Source of the DNA: Myxococcales bacterium 68-20 | Lineage (GTDB): Bacteria > Myxococcota_A > Polyangia > Polyangiales > Polyangiaceae | NCBI GenBank assembly: GCA_001899635.1 | Contig: MKVQ01000049.1 | Location: 89,017-153,016, forward strand | Length of the DNA: 64,000 nt | Direction of reading: 5' to 3' | Part shown: positions 1 to 16,693 of the stretch, piece by piece | Numbering within the stretch: the first letter of the stretch is position 1 | How the letters are laid out: every line of letters starts with the position of its first letter | The notes under the pieces: generated by a model | What the model was told of the DNA's origin: nothing | What the model saw: the letters and a program-made list of their open reading frames with translations, nothing else | The model's database searches: none | Translations under genes and position numbers: made by a program

Positions 1-738
1 CGCGCTGCCGTTGTTCCCGTTCGGGTCCTGATTTGGTTGCCCCATGGTGCCCGAGTTCCCCGGCGCACTCGTGAACCCAGCACTCGCTTTCAGCTCTACA
101 CGCTTGAGGGTCACGTTTGGCGAGCTCGCCACGAATGCGGCGATGCTCGACGGCGATGCATCCGTGCCCGGGACCGACTCAAAACCGATATCTTCGAACC
201 GAACTGCCGCCGTGACTCCGTCGACGTGGAGCGCGTAACCCGTGTCGGTTGGCGCCACCTTGGTCTTGATGCCAGGATCTGGTGCCCACGAGCTGCAGCT
301 GAACCCACCGAAGACGTTGGCGGCTGTCGTGACCTTTACGTGCTCGGCGTAGGGGCCTTCACCGCAAACGTAGATGCGGCGCTTCCCGGCCGAGGGAACC
401 TTCGCGATCGCGGCGGAGATCGTCTTGAACGGCTTCGCCTTCGTTCCATCGTTCGTGTCGTCGCCGGTCGCGCCGTCGACGAAGAGCGCGAACGAATCGA
501 CGATGCAGCCCTTCGCTTCGGGCGAGCTCGCGTCGGCCTTCTCGTTGCAGTCGTCCGGCGCGACCGCGTCGGGCGCGTCTGCATCGCGTCCGTCGCTGCT
601 GCCGCCGTCGCCCGTGTTGCCGCCTGGGATGCACGCGCCGTCGGTGCATCGATCGTCGAGTGACGCTGGGCATGCGGCCAGCGCGGTTGCGATACCCATC
701 AGGCCAATGAGGATCCCCGAGTCTCTCAATTGCTTCAT
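1..738 (-). CDS. DUF1565-type beta-helix lipoprotein (3' end outside window)
   Basis: The reading frame stays open for 246 codons from the ATG at 738 to the window edge, so the C-terminus is missing. The N-terminus is a lipoprotein signal (MKQLRDSGILIGLMGIATAL followed by AACP). An Asp/Gly-rich linker and a DUF1565-like block come next (FVDGATGDDTNDGTKAKPFK, then RRIYVCGEGPYAEHV), which in that family folds as a right-handed beta-helix. It is a diverged paralogue of the lipoprotein at 1103-2554: both share the order of lipobox, DGTKAKPFK-type motif, RRIY(V/I)C, GGF.C and SSIAAFVA. Presumably it is anchored to the outer membrane or surface. No enzymatic residues can be pointed to and its role is unknown. 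Confidence 0.8.
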   Translation of the reverse strand, partial: MKQLRDSGILIGLMGIATALAACPASLDDRCTDGACIPGGNTGDGGSSDGRDADAPDAVAPDDCNEKADASSPEAKGCIVDSFALFVDGATGDDTNDGTKAKPFKTISAAIAKVPSAGKRRIYVCGEGPYAEHVKVTTAANVFGGFSCSSWAPDPGIKTKVAPTDTGYALHVDGVTAAVRFEDIGFESVPGTDASPSSIAAFVASSPNVTLKRVELKASAGFTSAPGNSGTMGQPNQDPNGNNGSA

Positions 739-7907: not shown

Positions 7908-9278
7908 ATGAGCGTCGATCTCGTTGTCCGCGGCCAGCGTGTCTTCACTCCCGTCGGCGAGCGACCGGCCGCCGTTCATGTCGACCGCAAACGAGGCACG
8001 ATCGTTGCCGTCACCGAGCTCGAAGCGGCGCCGTCCGGCGTGGAGACGATCGACGCGGGCATGATGTGCGTCCTTCCCGGCCTCGTCGACACGCACGTCC
8101 ACATCAACGATCCCGGGCGTACCGACTGGGAGGGCTTCGAGACGGCGACGCGCGCGGCAGCCGCCGGTGGCGTGACGACGCTCGTGGACATGCCGCTCAA
8201 CAGCATTCCCCCGACGACGACGCTCGACGGGCTCGCGGCGAAGCTACGCGCGCTCGAGGCGAAGGCTCACGTCGACGTCGCGCTGTGCGGCGGGCTCGTG
8301 CCGTCGAACCCGGCCGGTCTCGCGGACCTCCATGCCGAGGGCGTGCTCGCGTTCAAATGTTTCCTCGCCGAGAGCGGCGTCGGCGAGTTCTCGTACGTCC
8401 ACGAGAACGAGCTCCGCGCCGGAATGAAGGAGCTAGCGCGCATCGACGCGCCGCTCTTCGTCCACGCCGAGCTGCCCGAGCCGCTCGCCGAAGGCGAGAA
8501 GGCGGCGATGGGGCTCGACCCGCGCCGCTACGCGACCTACCTCGCCTCGCGGCCGCGCCGCGCGGAGGACGCCGCGATCGAGCTCGTGCTCCGTCTCGCC
8601 CGTGAGACCGGCGCCCGCGCGCACGTGGTGCACCTGTCGTCGTCCGATGCGCTCGGCCTCTTCCGCCAGGCGCGCGACGAGAAGACCCGGCTCACGGTCG
8701 AGACCTGCCCGCATTACCTCACGTTTGCCGCCGAGGAGATCGAGGACGGCGCGACGGAGTACAAGTGCGCGCCGCCGATCCGTGAGCGCAACAACCGCGA
8801 GAAGCTGTGGGACGCGCTCCGCGAAGGCCTCGTCGATCAGGTCGTCACCGATCACTCTCCGTCCACTGCCGAGCTGAAGTGCTCCGGCTCCGGTGACTTC
8901 ATGAAGGCGTGGGGAGGTATCTCGTCATTGCAGCTCGGCCTCGCCGCCTTCTGGACCGAGGCGAGGGCACGCGGACGTTCGGTCCGCGATCTCGTCGAGT
9001 GGATGAGCGCCGCTCCCGCGCGTCTCGCCGGCATCCACGGCAAGAAGGGGGCGATCGCCGCCGGCTTCGATGCCGACCTCGTCATCTGGGATCCCGACGC
9101 CGACTTCACCGTCGACGCCTCGACGCTCCAGCACCGGAACAAGATCACGCCCTACCACGCGCGCAGCCTGAAGGGCGCGACGCTCCGGACCATCCTCCGG
9201 GGCGAGACGATCTACGAGCGCGATCGCGCCGGCGGCGCGTTCGCCGAGCGTCGCGGCCGCTGGCTCCGTCGGGCCTGA
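7908..9278 (+). CDS. allB: Allantoinase
   Basis: This 456-residue cyclic amidohydrolase opens the hydantoin ring of allantoin to give allantoate. The binuclear metal site is complete: H63 and H65 (DTHVHINDPG), carboxylated-Lys candidate K150 (AFKCFL), H186 (FVHAE), H242 (VVHLSSSD) and D315 (TDHSPS). Length and motifs are standard for AllB rather than dihydroorotase or hydantoinase. It lies upstream of allantoicase, OHCU decarboxylase, HIU hydrolase and urate oxidase on the same strand, so it should act between OHCU decarboxylase and allantoicase. The ATG at 7908 begins at the family's usual N-terminus. Confidence 0.93.
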   Translation: MSVDLVVRGQRVFTPVGERPAAVHVDRKRGTIVAVTELEAAPSGVETIDAGMMCVLPGLVDTHVHINDPGRTDWEGFETATRAAAAGGVTTLVDMPLNSIPPTTTLDGLAAKLRALEAKAHVDVALCGGLVPSNPAGLADLHAEGVLAFKCFLAESGVGEFSYVHENELRAGMKELARIDAPLFVHAELPEPLAEGEKAAMGLDPRRYATYLASRPRRAEDAAIELVLRLARETGARAHVVHLSSSDALGLFRQARDEKTRLTVETCPHYLTFAAEEIEDGATEYKCAPPIRERNNREKLWDALREGLVDQVVTDHSPSTAELKCSGSGDFMKAWGGISSLQLGLAAFWTEARARGRSVRDLVEWMSAAPARLAGIHGKKGAIAAGFDADLVIWDPDADFTVDASTLQHRNKITPYHARSLKGATLRTILRGETIYERDRAGGAFAERRGRWLRRA

Positions 9279-11143: not shown

Positions 11144-12703
11144 ATGGCGGACTTCAACGAGCTCATCGATCTCGCAGCGGAGCGCCTCGGCGGCTTCGTG
11201 CTCTGGGGAAGCGACGATTTCTTCGCCGAGAAGGAGAACCTCCTCAAGCCGGAGGAGGCGATCTTCATCGCCGGCAAATTCACCGACCGCGGCAAGTGGA
11301 TGGACGGCTGGGAGTCGCGGCGCAAGCGGCAGTACGCCGAGTCCTCCCGCGCTTACCCCGATCACGACACCTGCATCATCCGCCTCGGCCTCTCCGGCGT
11401 GGTGCGCGGCTTCGTCGTGGACACCGCGCACTTCAAGGGCAACTACCCGAAGGAGTGCTCGATCGAAGGCGCGAGCATCGAGGGCCACCCTGACGTCACG
11501 ACGCTCCTGTCGAGCGACGTGAAATGGACCGAGATTCTCCCGCGCACCGCCCTCGCGGGCGACACGAAGAACCGCTTCGAGGTCGAAGTCCCGCAGCGAT
11601 TCACCCATCTGCGCTTCCACATCTACCCGGACGGCGGCGTTGCACGGCTCCGCGTGCACGGCGACGTGATGCCGGGGGCGCGCTGGATGGGCCGGCGCGA
11701 CCGTCCTCAGCTCGTCGATCTCGCGGCGGCGGAGCACGGCGGTCTCGTCGTTTCGTGCAACGACATGTTCTTCGGCTCGCGCCACAACCTGATCATGCCC
11801 GGCCGCGGCGTGAACATGGGTGACGGTTGGGAGACGAAGCGCGGGCGCCGGCCGGGCCCCGACTGGGTCGTCGTCCGCCTCGCGACGGAGGGAGCGATCG
11901 AACGCGCAATCGTGGACACGCTGCACTTCCAGGGCAACGCACCCGACTTCTGCGCCATCGACGTCGCCTCGAGTCCGGACGCCGATCCCGACGGTTCGAG
12001 GGACGACGGCTGGCGACCGCTCCTCGCAAAGAAGAGCCTCCAGCCGCACACGGCGCACGTCTTCGAGGACGAGCTCCTCGCCGCAGGGGACGCGACCCAC
12101 GCGCGCGTTCGGATCTGGCCCGACGGCGGCGTGAGTCGGCTGCGCCTCTTCGGGATCGCGAGCGACGCGGGACGCGAGCGCTCCGGGATGCGCTACCTCC
12201 GCGCGATGCCGGAGCCCGAGCTCGAGAGCGCGCTCCGCTCATGCTGCGGGTCGAGCGCGTGGGTGCGTGCGATGGCCGACGAGCGAAGGAAGAACGCAGC
12301 CTCGTTCGCGAGCCTCGAGGCGCTCAAGAAGGTGGCCGCCGATCGTTGGAACGCGCTTGGTTCGAGCGACTGGGACGAGGCCTTCAAGGCGCATCCGCGC
12401 ATCGGCGAGAAGAAGGCGGACGGACCGCAGAGCAAGGTCGCTCATGGCTGGTCCACGAAGGAGCAGGCCAAGGTCTCCGAAGCGAGCCAGGCGGTACTCG
12501 AGGAGCTCCGCGCGACGAACAAGGCCTATGAGGAGCGCTTCGGCCGCATCTACATCGTCTGCGCGACGGGCAAGTCCGCCGAGGAGATGCTCGGCATCGC
12601 GAAGGAGCGGATGCAGAGCGCTGCCGAGACCGAAGTTCGCCGTGCCGCCGAGGAGCAACGCAAGATCACCGAGCTCCGGCTCGAGAAGCTGGTGATGGGA
12701 TGA
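11144..12703 (+). CDS. Allantoicase fused to OHCU decarboxylase
   Basis: A 519-residue bifunctional enzyme. Residues about 1-345 are allantoicase (allantoate to ureidoglycolate and urea), built of the family's two repeated beta-sandwich halves: one with GGFVLWGSDDFFAEKENLL and DGWESRRKR, the second with GGLVVSCNDMFFGSRHNLI and DGWETKRGR. Residues about 348-519 are OHCU decarboxylase (UraD), which turns 2-oxo-4-hydroxy-4-carboxy-5-ureidoimidazoline into S-allantoin. Visible UraD motifs are AHPRIGEKK near 416, GWSTKEQAKV and NKAYEERFGRIYIVCATGKS. The fusion joins two non-consecutive steps, since allantoinase acts between them. The TGA overlaps the uraH start by 4 bp (ATGA). Both halves look complete. 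Confidence 0.92.
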   Translation: MADFNELIDLAAERLGGFVLWGSDDFFAEKENLLKPEEAIFIAGKFTDRGKWMDGWESRRKRQYAESSRAYPDHDTCIIRLGLSGVVRGFVVDTAHFKGNYPKECSIEGASIEGHPDVTTLLSSDVKWTEILPRTALAGDTKNRFEVEVPQRFTHLRFHIYPDGGVARLRVHGDVMPGARWMGRRDRPQLVDLAAAEHGGLVVSCNDMFFGSRHNLIMPGRGVNMGDGWETKRGRRPGPDWVVVRLATEGAIERAIVDTLHFQGNAPDFCAIDVASSPDADPDGSRDDGWRPLLAKKSLQPHTAHVFEDELLAAGDATHARVRIWPDGGVSRLRLFGIASDAGRERSGMRYLRAMPEPELESALRSCCGSSAWVRAMADERRKNAASFASLEALKKVAADRWNALGSSDWDEAFKAHPRIGEKKADGPQSKVAHGWSTKEQAKVSEASQAVLEELRATNKAYEERFGRIYIVCATGKSAEEMLGIAKERMQSAAETEVRRAAEEQRKITELRLEKLVMG

Positions 12704-13038
12704 AATCCGTTTCCACCCACGTCCTCGACATCCACCGCGGCCGCCCCGCGGCGGGAGTGCCCGTCACCCTCGAGCGCAAGGACGGTGACGCGTTCACGCG
12801 CATCAAGGCCGCGGCGACCGACGCCGACGGCCGCGTGAAGGAGCTCGTCCCCGAAGGGCAGCTCACGAGCGGCACGTACCGCATCACGTTCGACACCGGC
12901 GCCTACTTCGCCGCGCAGAACGTCGAGGGCTTCTACCCGGAGGCGAGCATCGTGTTCGTCATCCGCGATGACGCCGCGCACTACCACGTGCCGCTCCTCT
13001 TGAGCGCGCACGGCTACTCGACCTACCGCGGCAGCTGA
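12700..13038 (+). CDS. uraH: 5-hydroxyisourate hydrolase
   Basis: A 112-residue transthyretin-like protein that hydrolyses 5-hydroxyisourate, the direct product of urate oxidation, to OHCU. It begins MKSVSTHVLDIHRGRPAAG with the N-terminal active-site His, contains HYHVPLLLSAHGYSTYRGS, and ends in the family's diagnostic YRGS C-terminus that separates true HIU hydrolases from transthyretin. No signal peptide, so cytoplasmic. Its start overlaps the stop of the allantoicase-OHCU decarboxylase gene (ATGA), whose second domain uses its product. Confidence 0.95.
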   Translation: MKSVSTHVLDIHRGRPAAGVPVTLERKDGDAFTRIKAAATDADGRVKELVPEGQLTSGTYRITFDTGAYFAAQNVEGFYPEASIVFVIRDDAAHYHVPLLLSAHGYSTYRGS

Positions 13039-13288: not shown

Positions 13289-13807
13289 TCAGTCGACGGT
13301 GTGGCAGCCCGCGCAGCCGAAGCCCTTGTGCGTGGCGGGATCGTACGGCTTCTCGTTGAGGGCCTCGGCCATCGCCGGCACGACCTTCTCGCCCATGAAC
13401 TTCATCATCTCGGGCTGCGCCTTCGCGAGCTTCTCGAAGCCGCCGTTCGAGAGCGTGAGCTTCGGGAGGACCTTGCGCGGGTCGTCCTTCTTCTGCGGGC
13501 CGTGGCAGGTAGCGCAGCCGAACTTCTCGAACTTCTTGCCGTCATGCTCCTTGAAGAGCTTCCCGACGTTCGGGACGACCTTCGCCGACATGACCTCGAT
13601 CTTCTTCTCCATCGGGAGGTCGTCGAAGCTCGGGCCTTCGTGCGCGGCGTGGGCGGTCTCTCCGCCGGTGCCGGCATCGCCGGTCTCGGTGTTCGCGTCG
13701 GCGGCCTCGGTCGGGGCCGACGGCGGGTTGGCCGCGGGCTGCGAGCCTCCGCAGGCGAGGAGGGAAGCGGTCGCGACGGCGAGGAAAACGAGAAGGTGGC
13801 TACGCAT
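13289..13807 (-). CDS. Two-haem cytochrome c lipoprotein
   Basis: A 172-residue lipoprotein: MRSHLLVFLAVATASLLACG has the lipobox LLAC, followed by a Pro/Ala/Thr-rich linker. Two CxxCH haem-binding motifs are present, GCATCHGPQ near residue 98 and GCAGCHTVD at the very C-terminus, with methionines between them (MMKFMGEKVVPAM) that could be axial ligands. The start at 13807 is chosen over a frame to 13876 because it begins the signal peptide. The gene is divergent from the PuuD-cupredoxin gene with 68 bp between starts. That urate oxidase lacks the usual cytochrome c domain, so this protein is a plausible electron acceptor for it or carrier downstream of it (inference). Confidence 0.85.
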   Translation of the reverse strand: MRSHLLVFLAVATASLLACGGSQPAANPPSAPTEAADANTETGDAGTGGETAHAAHEGPSFDDLPMEKKIEVMSAKVVPNVGKLFKEHDGKKFEKFGCATCHGPQKKDDPRKVLPKLTLSNGGFEKLAKAQPEMMKFMGEKVVPAMAEALNEKPYDPATHKGFGCAGCHTVD

Positions 13808-13875: not shown

Positions 13876-15546
13876 ATGGACCTTACGCTCGAGCTGATTC
13901 ATATTCGGAGGCCGATGAGCCCGGCGTTCGTCACGGAGTGGTTGAATCTTTCCGTCCGCTGGATCCACGTCATTGCGGGGATCATGTGGATTGGCAGCTC
14001 GTTGTTCTTCAACTGGCTCGATGCACGCATCGAGAAGAACGAGCGCACCAAGGAGAAGGGCATCGAGGGCGAGCTCTGGATGGTGCACTCCGGCGGGTTC
14101 TACGACGTCGAGAAGACGCTCGTCGCGCCGAAGGTGATGCCCAAGCACCTCCACTGGTTCAAGTGGGAGGCGATGTTCACGATGCTGTCGGGCTGGCTCC
14201 TGCTCGACATCGTGTTCTTCCAGGGCGGCGCCGTCACGCTCGTCGATCCGAACGTCTCGGACATCTCGCCCGCTGCCGCGGTCGCGCTGTCGATCGGGAC
14301 GCTCATCGGATCGTGGTTCGTCTACGACATCCTCTGGCGCTCGCCGCTCACGAAGAGCGTGCCCGTCGGCGCGGCGATCACGTACGGCCTGATCGTCGGC
14401 GTCCTCTTCTTCCTGTCCCACAAGGTCAGCGGACGCGCCGCGTTCCTCCTCACGGGCGGAATGATGGGAACGTGGATGGCGACCAACGTCTGGGTGCACA
14501 TCATCCCGGCGCAGAAGGGGCTGGTGAAGGCGGTCACCGCGGGAAAGTCGCCGGATCCGAAGCTCGCGAAGCACGCCAAGACGCGCTCTCGGCACAACAA
14601 CTACATGACCTATCCGGTGGTGCTCATCATGCTGAGCAACCACTTCCCGGGCGTGTACGGCCACAAGCACGCGTGGCTCGTCCTCGCCGGTCTCATCCTC
14701 GTCGGCTCGGCGATCCGGCACCTGCAGAACGTGAAGAAGGAGCTCGCTCCGGGCGTGCTCATCGCCGTCCTCCTCGTGCTCCTCACGGTCGCGCACTCCT
14801 CGCTCACGTCTGCTCCGGCGAGCGCGGGCAGCGCGGGCGGCGACTCGAAGACCCCGCTCACGGCGACGACTCCCGAGACCAAGGGCGGTCCGGAGAAGGT
14901 CGCGAACGAGTCGGTCGTCGGCGTCGTGAAGGGCACGGTGAACCTCGTGGGCACGCCGCCGCCGAACAAGGAGCTCAACGTCGGAACCTGCACGAGCGAC
15001 GTGACGGGCCCGGTGATGTCCGATGCGGTCCTCGCGAAGGGGGGCAAGCTCCAGAACGCGTTCGTCTGGATCAAGGGCGGCCTCGACTCGTACAAGGCGC
15101 CGGCTGCGCCGAGCGAGCCTGTCGTGGTCGACCAGAAGGGGTGCATGTACAACCCTCATGTCGTCGGCGCGCGCGTCGGGCAGAAGGTCATCTTCCTCAA
15201 CAGCGACCCCGTGCTTCACAACGTGCGTGCCGTCGCGGAGACCAACGCGACGTTCAACGACATGATGCCGACGAAGGACATGCGCCTCGAGAAGGTCTTC
15301 GACAAGACCGAGGTTCCGGTGCGCGCGAAGTGTGACGTCCACCCGTGGATGAGCGCCTTCGTCGGTGTCGTCCCGCATCCGTTCTTCGCGGTGAGCGGCG
15401 TCGCGGGCGAGTTCTCGCTCGTGAACGTCCCCGAGGGCACCTACGAGATCGAGGCCTGGCACGAGGTCTTCGGGCGACAGACGCAGAAGATCGAGGTCAA
15501 GGCGCGCGAGACCGCCGAGCTCGCGCTGACGTTCCGCGCGGAATAG
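13876..15546 (+). CDS. puuD: PuuD-type membrane urate oxidase with C-terminal cupredoxin domain
   Basis: This 556-residue protein has two parts. Residues 1-305 are the membrane urate oxidase domain (DUF989/PuuD): about eight hydrophobic segments and the family's opening NLSVRWIHVIAGIMWIGSS, HSGGFYDVEK and LHWFKWEAMFTMLSGW. PuuD oxidises urate to 5-hydroxyisourate and normally passes electrons to a C-terminal cytochrome c domain. Here no CxxCH exists. After a linker (306-345), residues 346-556 form a cupredoxin-like domain with candidate type-1 copper ligands H448 (VLHNVRA), C486, H489 and M492 (CDVHPWM), then a beta-sandwich tail (VPEGTYEIEAWHEVFGRQTQ). Copper thus appears to replace haem as the built-in acceptor. 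The divergent gene encodes a separate two-haem cytochrome c. Start ATG 13876 has GGAAG nine bases upstream. Confidence 0.85.
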   Translation: MDLTLELIHIRRPMSPAFVTEWLNLSVRWIHVIAGIMWIGSSLFFNWLDARIEKNERTKEKGIEGELWMVHSGGFYDVEKTLVAPKVMPKHLHWFKWEAMFTMLSGWLLLDIVFFQGGAVTLVDPNVSDISPAAAVALSIGTLIGSWFVYDILWRSPLTKSVPVGAAITYGLIVGVLFFLSHKVSGRAAFLLTGGMMGTWMATNVWVHIIPAQKGLVKAVTAGKSPDPKLAKHAKTRSRHNNYMTYPVVLIMLSNHFPGVYGHKHAWLVLAGLILVGSAIRHLQNVKKELAPGVLIAVLLVLLTVAHSSLTSAPASAGSAGGDSKTPLTATTPETKGGPEKVANESVVGVVKGTVNLVGTPPPNKELNVGTCTSDVTGPVMSDAVLAKGGKLQNAFVWIKGGLDSYKAPAAPSEPVVVDQKGCMYNPHVVGARVGQKVIFLNSDPVLHNVRAVAETNATFNDMMPTKDMRLEKVFDKTEVPVRAKCDVHPWMSAFVGVVPHPFFAVSGVAGEFSLVNVPEGTYEIEAWHEVFGRQTQKIEVKARETAELALTFRAE

Positions 15547-15600
15547 CCCGACGTGGAGACTTTTTGGCTCGACCGGGATAGCGGCTGATATGGTGCGGCG

Positions 15601-16443
15601 ATGAAGGCGGTGGCGCTCGTCGGAGCGATTCTATGCTGCGCTGCAGTCGCGGCATGCTCGCTGGCGATGGCGTCGGAGCTCGATGACGCGCGCGAGCCGG
15701 TCCCTGCGCCGTTGCCCGGCCAGCCGGACGCCGACAGCGGCTCGGCGAGCCTCTTCGACGGTGGCGCGGACCCCGGTGCTGACGCTGCCGTCCGTAAGCG
15801 GGGATGTCGCGAGCTCGATCCGCCTCCTCAGTTCTGCGAGGACTTCGACGACGGGGAGCTCGGCGAGAACTGGGACGCGCTCGAGGATGCCGGTGGCACG
15901 ATCGCGTTCGACTCCCTGGCGTATTCGGCGCCCCGTTCGGCGCGGATCAGCCTCGTCGAGGCGCCGAGCTGCTCGAGCGCGTTCTTCCAACGGGGCTTCT
16001 CGGGCATCGGGACCAACGTCGTCGACGTTCGCGTTCAAATGCGTCCGAGCTCGCCGTGGAACGCTGAATATACGCCGCTCGCCATCGTCTTTTCCTCCGA
16101 TTGCGTCGTGTTCATCAACGCGCGTCCGGTCGCCTCGGGAGCCATCGGGTCGACCGTCGCCGCCATCCTTCATCCGAACAGCTCCGATACGGGCGGCTTC
16201 CGGTCGCTCGCTGGTGGTCTGCGCGTCGACGAGTGGACCGACGTGCGGATCTCGGCGGTGCGTCAGGGCTCGGGAGCGGCGATCACCTTCGCGTTCGAGC
16301 GCGCCGATGGAACGCTGAGCGAGACGACCGAGAGCGTTGCGGAGTGCACGCTTGGCGGCGATCTCATGCTCGGTGTTGGCTACCAGTGCGGTGCCGGCAC
16401 CAGCGAGACGCGATACGACGACGTGCGGGTGTACTGGAAGTAG
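15601..16443 (+). CDS. Secreted lipoprotein, LamG/concanavalin-like fold suspected
   Basis: A 280-residue lipoprotein: MKAVALVGAILCCAAVAACS carries the lipobox VAAC, followed by an Asp/Gly/Ala linker. The body begins CRELDPPPQFCEDFDDGELG and ends CGAGTSETRYDDVRVYWK. The pattern FCEDFDDG ... DEWTDVRISAV ... YDDVRVYW is that of the single-domain sugar-binding-like sandwiches frequent in Myxococcota lipoproteins. The fold assignment is an inference and no ligand or catalytic residues can be named. It follows the urate oxidase by 54 bp on the same strand but looks unrelated to purine metabolism. Confidence 0.8.
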   Translation: MKAVALVGAILCCAAVAACSLAMASELDDAREPVPAPLPGQPDADSGSASLFDGGADPGADAAVRKRGCRELDPPPQFCEDFDDGELGENWDALEDAGGTIAFDSLAYSAPRSARISLVEAPSCSSAFFQRGFSGIGTNVVDVRVQMRPSSPWNAEYTPLAIVFSSDCVVFINARPVASGAIGSTVAAILHPNSSDTGGFRSLAGGLRVDEWTDVRISAVRQGSGAAITFAFERADGTLSETTESVAECTLGGDLMLGVGYQCGAGTSETRYDDVRVYWK

Positions 16444-16693
16444 AGCGCGCCGCCGAGATCCTCTGCGACTGACGGTAGAGCCAACAGGACCGGACCGGAG
16501 CTGGCTTCCTCGAACGAGACGAGCCGCGGAACGGCTGACGCGCAGCAGGCTCCGCGTTCCTCGACGGCATCTACCCAGCGCCCATGGTCGGAACGTCGGC
16601 TCGAGGCGGCCCGCGCGCAGCGCGTGACGCGCGCTGCTTCCTCTCCGTGCCGCTCGGCGTGAATCCGGTCGAAGATCCATCGTCTCACGAAGG

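Follow-up and report, generated by a model that had tools for sequence, protein, structure and literature searches.

The enzyme that most closely resembles the protein of this locus is the cytochrome c urate oxidase PuuD (COG3748/DUF989), known from Agrobacterium fabrum (Atu2314), which carries a C-terminal c-type cytochrome with a CXXCH motif and a distal methionine and has a published topology of N-out/C-out (PMC4562309). The CXXCH motif was reported to be strictly conserved in all PuuD proteins and the cytochrome to be invariably present, and the same paper left it open whether the cytochrome takes the electrons of urate or only scavenges superoxide (Doniselli et al., 2015; PMC4562309). Among three-domain copper nitrite reductases, one enzyme class, the fused electron partner is a cytochrome c in some members and a cupredoxin in others: the Ralstonia-type enzyme has a tethered cytochrome c (PMC6278305) and NirK of Thermus scotoductus an extra cupredoxin (PMC6400189). 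These reductases are soluble, receive electrons and have an unrelated catalytic domain, unlike the copper-type PuuD (Cu-PuuD) considered here. On these grounds a swap of this kind has a precedent in NirK, and its instance in PuuD appears to be new; among open-licence PMC papers, none was found on a copper-form urate oxidase (cupredoxin, DUF989, PF06181).

The host of the Cu-type PuuD gene is a soil bacterium. Within the window, by which is meant the whole 64,000-nt stretch of DNA analyzed and in which no RNA family was found with Rfam, the gene lies in a plus-strand reading frame (13876–15546) that is open throughout and encodes 556 aa. The true start is probably the ATG at 13915 (543 aa) rather than the upstream ATG at 13876, since the former has a GGAGG directly upstream and the near homologs L002 and L003 start, in the alignment, at the matching residue. 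Residue numbers refer to the 556-aa frame; for the 543-aa protein 13 is subtracted, and the predicted copper ligands become H435/C473/H476/M479. The gene is made up as follows:

13915–15546, plus strand: Cu-type PuuD gene, from the probable start
13927–14811, plus strand: DUF989/PF06181 eight-helix membrane domain, predicted to oxidize urate (Pfam match, residues 18–305; the last predicted helix ends at 312)
14911–15108, plus strand: first part of a transthyretin/carboxypeptidase-regulatory-like sandwich (residues 346–411; VIA-align)
15109–15375, plus strand: inserted cupredoxin with a predicted type 1 copper ligand set (residues 412–500; VIA-align and profile search)
15217–15219, plus strand: predicted copper ligand His448 (invariance and amicyanin alignment)
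15331–15351, plus strand: predicted CDVHPWM ligand loop with Cys486, His489 and Met492 (invariance and amicyanin alignment)
15376–15543, plus strand: second, transthyretin-like part of the sandwich (residues 501–556; weak CarboxypepD_reg match)

The membrane part of the protein is like that of PuuD. The PF06181 (Urate_ox_N) profile covers it with an E-value of 8.6e-105 and 350.8 bits against a cut-off of 26.9, and eight long helices were predicted between residues 16 and 312 in the full-length AlphaFold2 model. Fourteen residues (R28, H31, W38, H71, H93, W94, E98, R187, Q213, R237, S238, N241, M252, and H256) are identical in 20 copper-type and 19 other PuuD sequences, the cytochrome type included, and with all of these alignment invariants kept the earlier sequence-only reading of an intact eight-helix PuuD part was borne out. 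An N-out/C-out arrangement as in Atu2314 is expected, and because this is the published topology of PuuD, the tail of the window protein is by analogy placed in the periplasm, exactly where the cytochrome lies in the known enzyme. The rows shown by a Foldseek search with the full-length model were cupredoxins, beta-sandwiches and unspecific hits, with no obvious relative of the membrane domain among the matches listed. A haem b kinship of DUF989 with HemJ, with a HemJ-like family and with DUF2269 is unsupported, as HHalign gave probabilities of 0.2, 6, and 1%, respectively; despite these low values, helix I does show a similar H-x6-W-x-G pattern.

Where Atu2314 has its cytochrome, the window protein has a cupredoxin set in a sandwich. 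The absence of CxxCH that had been remarked upon from the sequence holds for the frame 13876–15546 and for every plus-strand frame from 13876 to 16600, which rules out a mis-read cytochrome gene; a cytochrome domain hidden in another of these frames was looked for and none was found. To describe the tail, 48 tails (20 from fusions and 28 from separate genes, 31–90% identical to the window domain) were aligned. The tail-only AlphaFold2 model made from this alignment has a mean pLDDT of 95.6 and a pTM of 0.92 and is confident at residues 445–467, where the full-length model has a pLDDT below 50. Searched with Foldseek, the tail model matched Thermus NirK, amicyanins and the purple cupredoxin 5fc9 with E-values of 2e-6 to 5e-6, and a profile search with the tail returned 5fc9 (E 2.7e-7) and amicyanin (E 2e-6). 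Using VIA-align, residues 412–500 (model 74–158) were superposed on plastocyanin with a Z of 12.3 and an rmsd of 1.7 over 84 residues, and amicyanin was superposed on the tail cupredoxin with a Z of 11.5 and an rmsd of 2.2 over 87; the two flanks together (model 8..215) match a carboxypeptidase D regulatory sandwich (Z 11.6), and CarboxypepD_reg matches weakly in all 48 tail homologs. Single-sequence alignments to solved amicyanins brought the His, Cys, His and Met into register, with His448 on the histidine of HNVH and the CDVHPWM loop on CTPHPFM. As modeled, and given the agreement of VIA-align, the profile search and the in-register alignments, the tail is a cupredoxin (about residues 412–500) inserted in a transthyretin-like sandwich and bearing an amicyanin-type C-x2-H-x2-M loop. 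Residues 346–556 had been taken as cupredoxin-like over their whole length; the structure prediction did return a cupredoxin fold, but only for about residues 412–500, the rest being sandwich. The positions given earlier for the four ligands were correct, while their spacing, described there as one reported in plastocyanin-like domains of separate lipoproteins, is that of amicyanin and not peculiar to lipoproteins.

Amicyanin is the acceptor for methylamine dehydrogenase. The tail shares with it the fold, the H...C-x2-H-x2-M layout and, presumably, the role of accepting single electrons in the periplasm from a catabolic oxidation; unlike amicyanin, it is part of a membrane enzyme and sits within a second sandwich domain, and the two are only ~25% identical. 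The amicyanin model TIGR02657 weakly matches 13 of the 48 tail relatives and does not match the window protein, whole or as tail alone, which places it outside the equivalog family of amicyanin proper. Stand-alone CDVHPWM cupredoxins of Myxococcota (e.g., L146:4554-5324, L137) have the same architecture and ligands and are 31–46% identical to the tail; they are encoded on their own, in some cases with a lipoprotein signal, whereas the window tail is fused.

All four of H448, C486, H489, and M492 are invariant in 48/48 aligned tails, as are C372 and C423, and with relatives so far apart in identity the ligand set is not due to chance. Pairwise dN/dS among near relatives was 0.02–0.22 for the cupredoxin vs 0.13–0.36 for the membrane domain, and in every relative comparison the cupredoxin had the lowest value of all segments. 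These results bear on the view that the tail transfers no electrons in urate oxidation and is instead a beta-domain that is structural or has degenerated, or else stores copper or acts as its chaperone. Two observations would suit such a view: many stand-alone tail relatives in Myxococcota genomes are without an assigned role, and the sandwich of the transthyretin-like part is of a generic kind. The view is nevertheless very unlikely given the invariant ligands, the low dN/dS of the cupredoxin and the recurrent joining of this domain to DUF989 in urate clusters.

The genes upstream of Cu-PuuD resemble the urate gene context of PuuD:

7908–9278, plus strand: allantoinase AllB (TIGR03178, E 1.4e-164)
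11144–12703, plus strand: allantoicase fused to OHCU decarboxylase in one ORF (TIGR02961 and TIGR03180, both over cut-off)
12700–13038, plus strand: 5-hydroxyisourate (HIU) hydrolase (TIGR02962, E 1e-41)
13289–13807, minus strand: divergent neighbor, a predicted lipoprotein with two CxxCH motifs (CATCH, CAGCH)

Cu-PuuD is the single PF06181 gene of the window genome, and searches there for Uricase (PF01014) and HpxO gave no Uricase and nothing above the HpxO cut-off; for these reasons, and with the downstream enzymes encoded in the window, Cu-PuuD is likely the source of HIU in this organism. It could be supposed that the transthyretin-like sandwich is itself a fused HIU hydrolase that processes what the oxidase makes, as HIU hydrolase and the tail both match the CarboxypepD_reg profile weakly. 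This supposition was rejected because the tail has no PF00576 match, and it deserves almost no credence when an intact HIU hydrolase gene is present elsewhere in the window and the same sandwich occurs in stand-alone cupredoxins. The divergent lipoprotein exceeded the cut-off of no Pfam or NCBIfam family. It adjoins Cu-PuuD at three loci only (the window, L003 and L122), which rules it out as a general partner and makes it at best a lineage-specific one. Comparison of the window with L003 shows a shifted HIU hydrolase side of the cluster and an unbroken lipoprotein/Cu-PuuD pair, which, with the pair seen in three genomes, hints at a link.

The search for PuuD homologs with the same fusion that had been proposed found full-length DUF989–cupredoxin fusions in Labilithrix-like Myxococcota (the window's genus), other Myxococcota families, Bacteriovoracaceae and Planctomycetota, the sampling of Planctomycetota and Bdellovibrionota being limited to loci from one genome search. 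Among nine genomes of the window's genus with PF06181, eight have the copper form and one the cytochrome form. No copper form was seen on plasmids, as none of the 255 plasmid records with PuuD relatives covered 80% of the query. Most fused loci, in distant lineages, have HIU hydrolase, OHCU decarboxylase, allantoicase or allantoinase alongside. At L056 and L005 (duplicate L126) the sampled neighbors of the fusion are housekeeping genes and no purine genes lie near, and at L008 the contig ends within the fused gene. A cytochrome-type PuuD of the same genus (G286:C28; L062, L194) sits on a long branch with no purine genes within 14 kb, a context unlike that of its copper-type relatives.

Unfused arrangements also occur. 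In G202 (L146:4554-6421) a stand-alone DUF989 gene adjoins, in divergent orientation, a gene for a cupredoxin that carries a lipoprotein signal; the pair belongs to a full urate cluster and has allantoinase on one side and allantoicase/OHCU decarboxylase on the other. Further unfused pairs of DUF989-like and cupredoxin genes (L131:4823-6494, L137:4339-6049, and L132:4493-6271) have no purine genes near and possibly act on another substrate. Full-length DUF989 genes with no C-terminal electron domain (L147:4668-5522, L148:4696-5499, L149, and L045:5977-6798) either lead urate operons or lie within them, showing that a fused acceptor is not obligatory. DUF989 genes of ~270 aa without a cytochrome were seen in Elusimicrobiota (L049–L055, L059), with no purine neighbors detected.

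The three pairs and the Elusimicrobia DUF989-only genes, all without purine genes nearby, raise the question of whether the fused protein is a neofunctionalised DUF989 that oxidizes a substrate other than urate. That seems most unlikely, as the window and most fused loci carry allantoinase, allantoicase, OHCU decarboxylase and HIU hydrolase, and the window genome has no Uricase, HpxO over cut-off or other PF06181 gene, within the enzymes searched, to provide HIU.

In the tree of tails, the fusions of G147/G213 group with the unfused lipoprotein of G202 (100/100) and away from the main fused group, and these sequence relationships indicate that fusion occurred in at least two independent events. 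The tree of membrane domains has copper forms in at least three places, and a single copper clade was rejected at a p-AU of 0.028; as this value is marginal and the branches are long, the claim is kept at two events as a minimum.

Taken with the fold, the kept invariants and the purine-gene context, which support the membrane urate-oxidizing enzyme with a built-in copper acceptor put forward in the sequence-only reading (copper loading and urate oxidation being predicted), it is very probable that this gene encodes a PuuD/DUF989-type membrane urate oxidase in which a covalently attached periplasmic domain with type 1 copper, instead of a c-type cytochrome, serves as one-electron acceptor. That type 1 copper replaces c-haem is the simplest reading when the genetics of PuuD (PMC4562309) are taken as established for the membrane domain. 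An accessory role is conceivable, in which the cupredoxin would bind copper and take no electrons from urate, for example removing superoxide for an oxygen-using DUF989 reaction. Doniselli et al. (PMC4562309) stated the superoxide alternative for the PuuD cytochrome and saw no specific effect of azide on PuuD, and the DUF989 genes of urate clusters that lack any acceptor fit such a role. However, c-haem or type 1 copper fills the same position in related genes and the trait common to the two is one-electron transfer, which is an argument and no proof, and no other part of the protein is as constrained as the copper domain; we therefore regard an accessory role as unlikely.

For an enzyme with a copper acceptor, we infer the chemistry, copper loading, direction of electron flow and partner as follows. 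The conserved eight-helix domain would oxidize urate to 5-hydroxyisourate, probably at the cytosolic face, and two electrons would cross the membrane domain one at a time to the copper, held by His, Cys, His, and Met at the outer face. From there they may pass to a soluble or lipid-anchored carrier, for example the neighboring two-CxxCH protein, which would deliver them to a terminal oxidase.

The copper-for-haem swap suggests that the enzyme needs any electron acceptor at that spot and not haem itself. It is rather likely that DUF989 forms a transmembrane urate dehydrogenase module complete in itself, able to pass electrons to interchangeable one-electron acceptors: a c-haem or a type 1 copper when the acceptor is fused (the copper gained at least twice), or a copper lipoprotein from a separate adjacent gene. 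If so, haem is not needed for the chemistry, and urate oxidation linked to respiration can run on copper. The recurrent natural replacement of cytochrome by copper would isolate the essential part of the enzyme, a one-electron acceptor at its periplasmic end, and the copper form makes the disputed role of the PuuD electron domain testable, in that the transfer of electrons from urate could be followed directly by a change of color at about 600 nm. The copper form does without cytochrome c maturation, and its expression may be easier than that of cytochrome PuuD. Purine breakdown would thereby be linked to copper-based electron transport, and PuuD searches that require a cytochrome domain would miss urate oxidizers in Myxococcota, Planctomycetota, and Bacteriovoracaceae.
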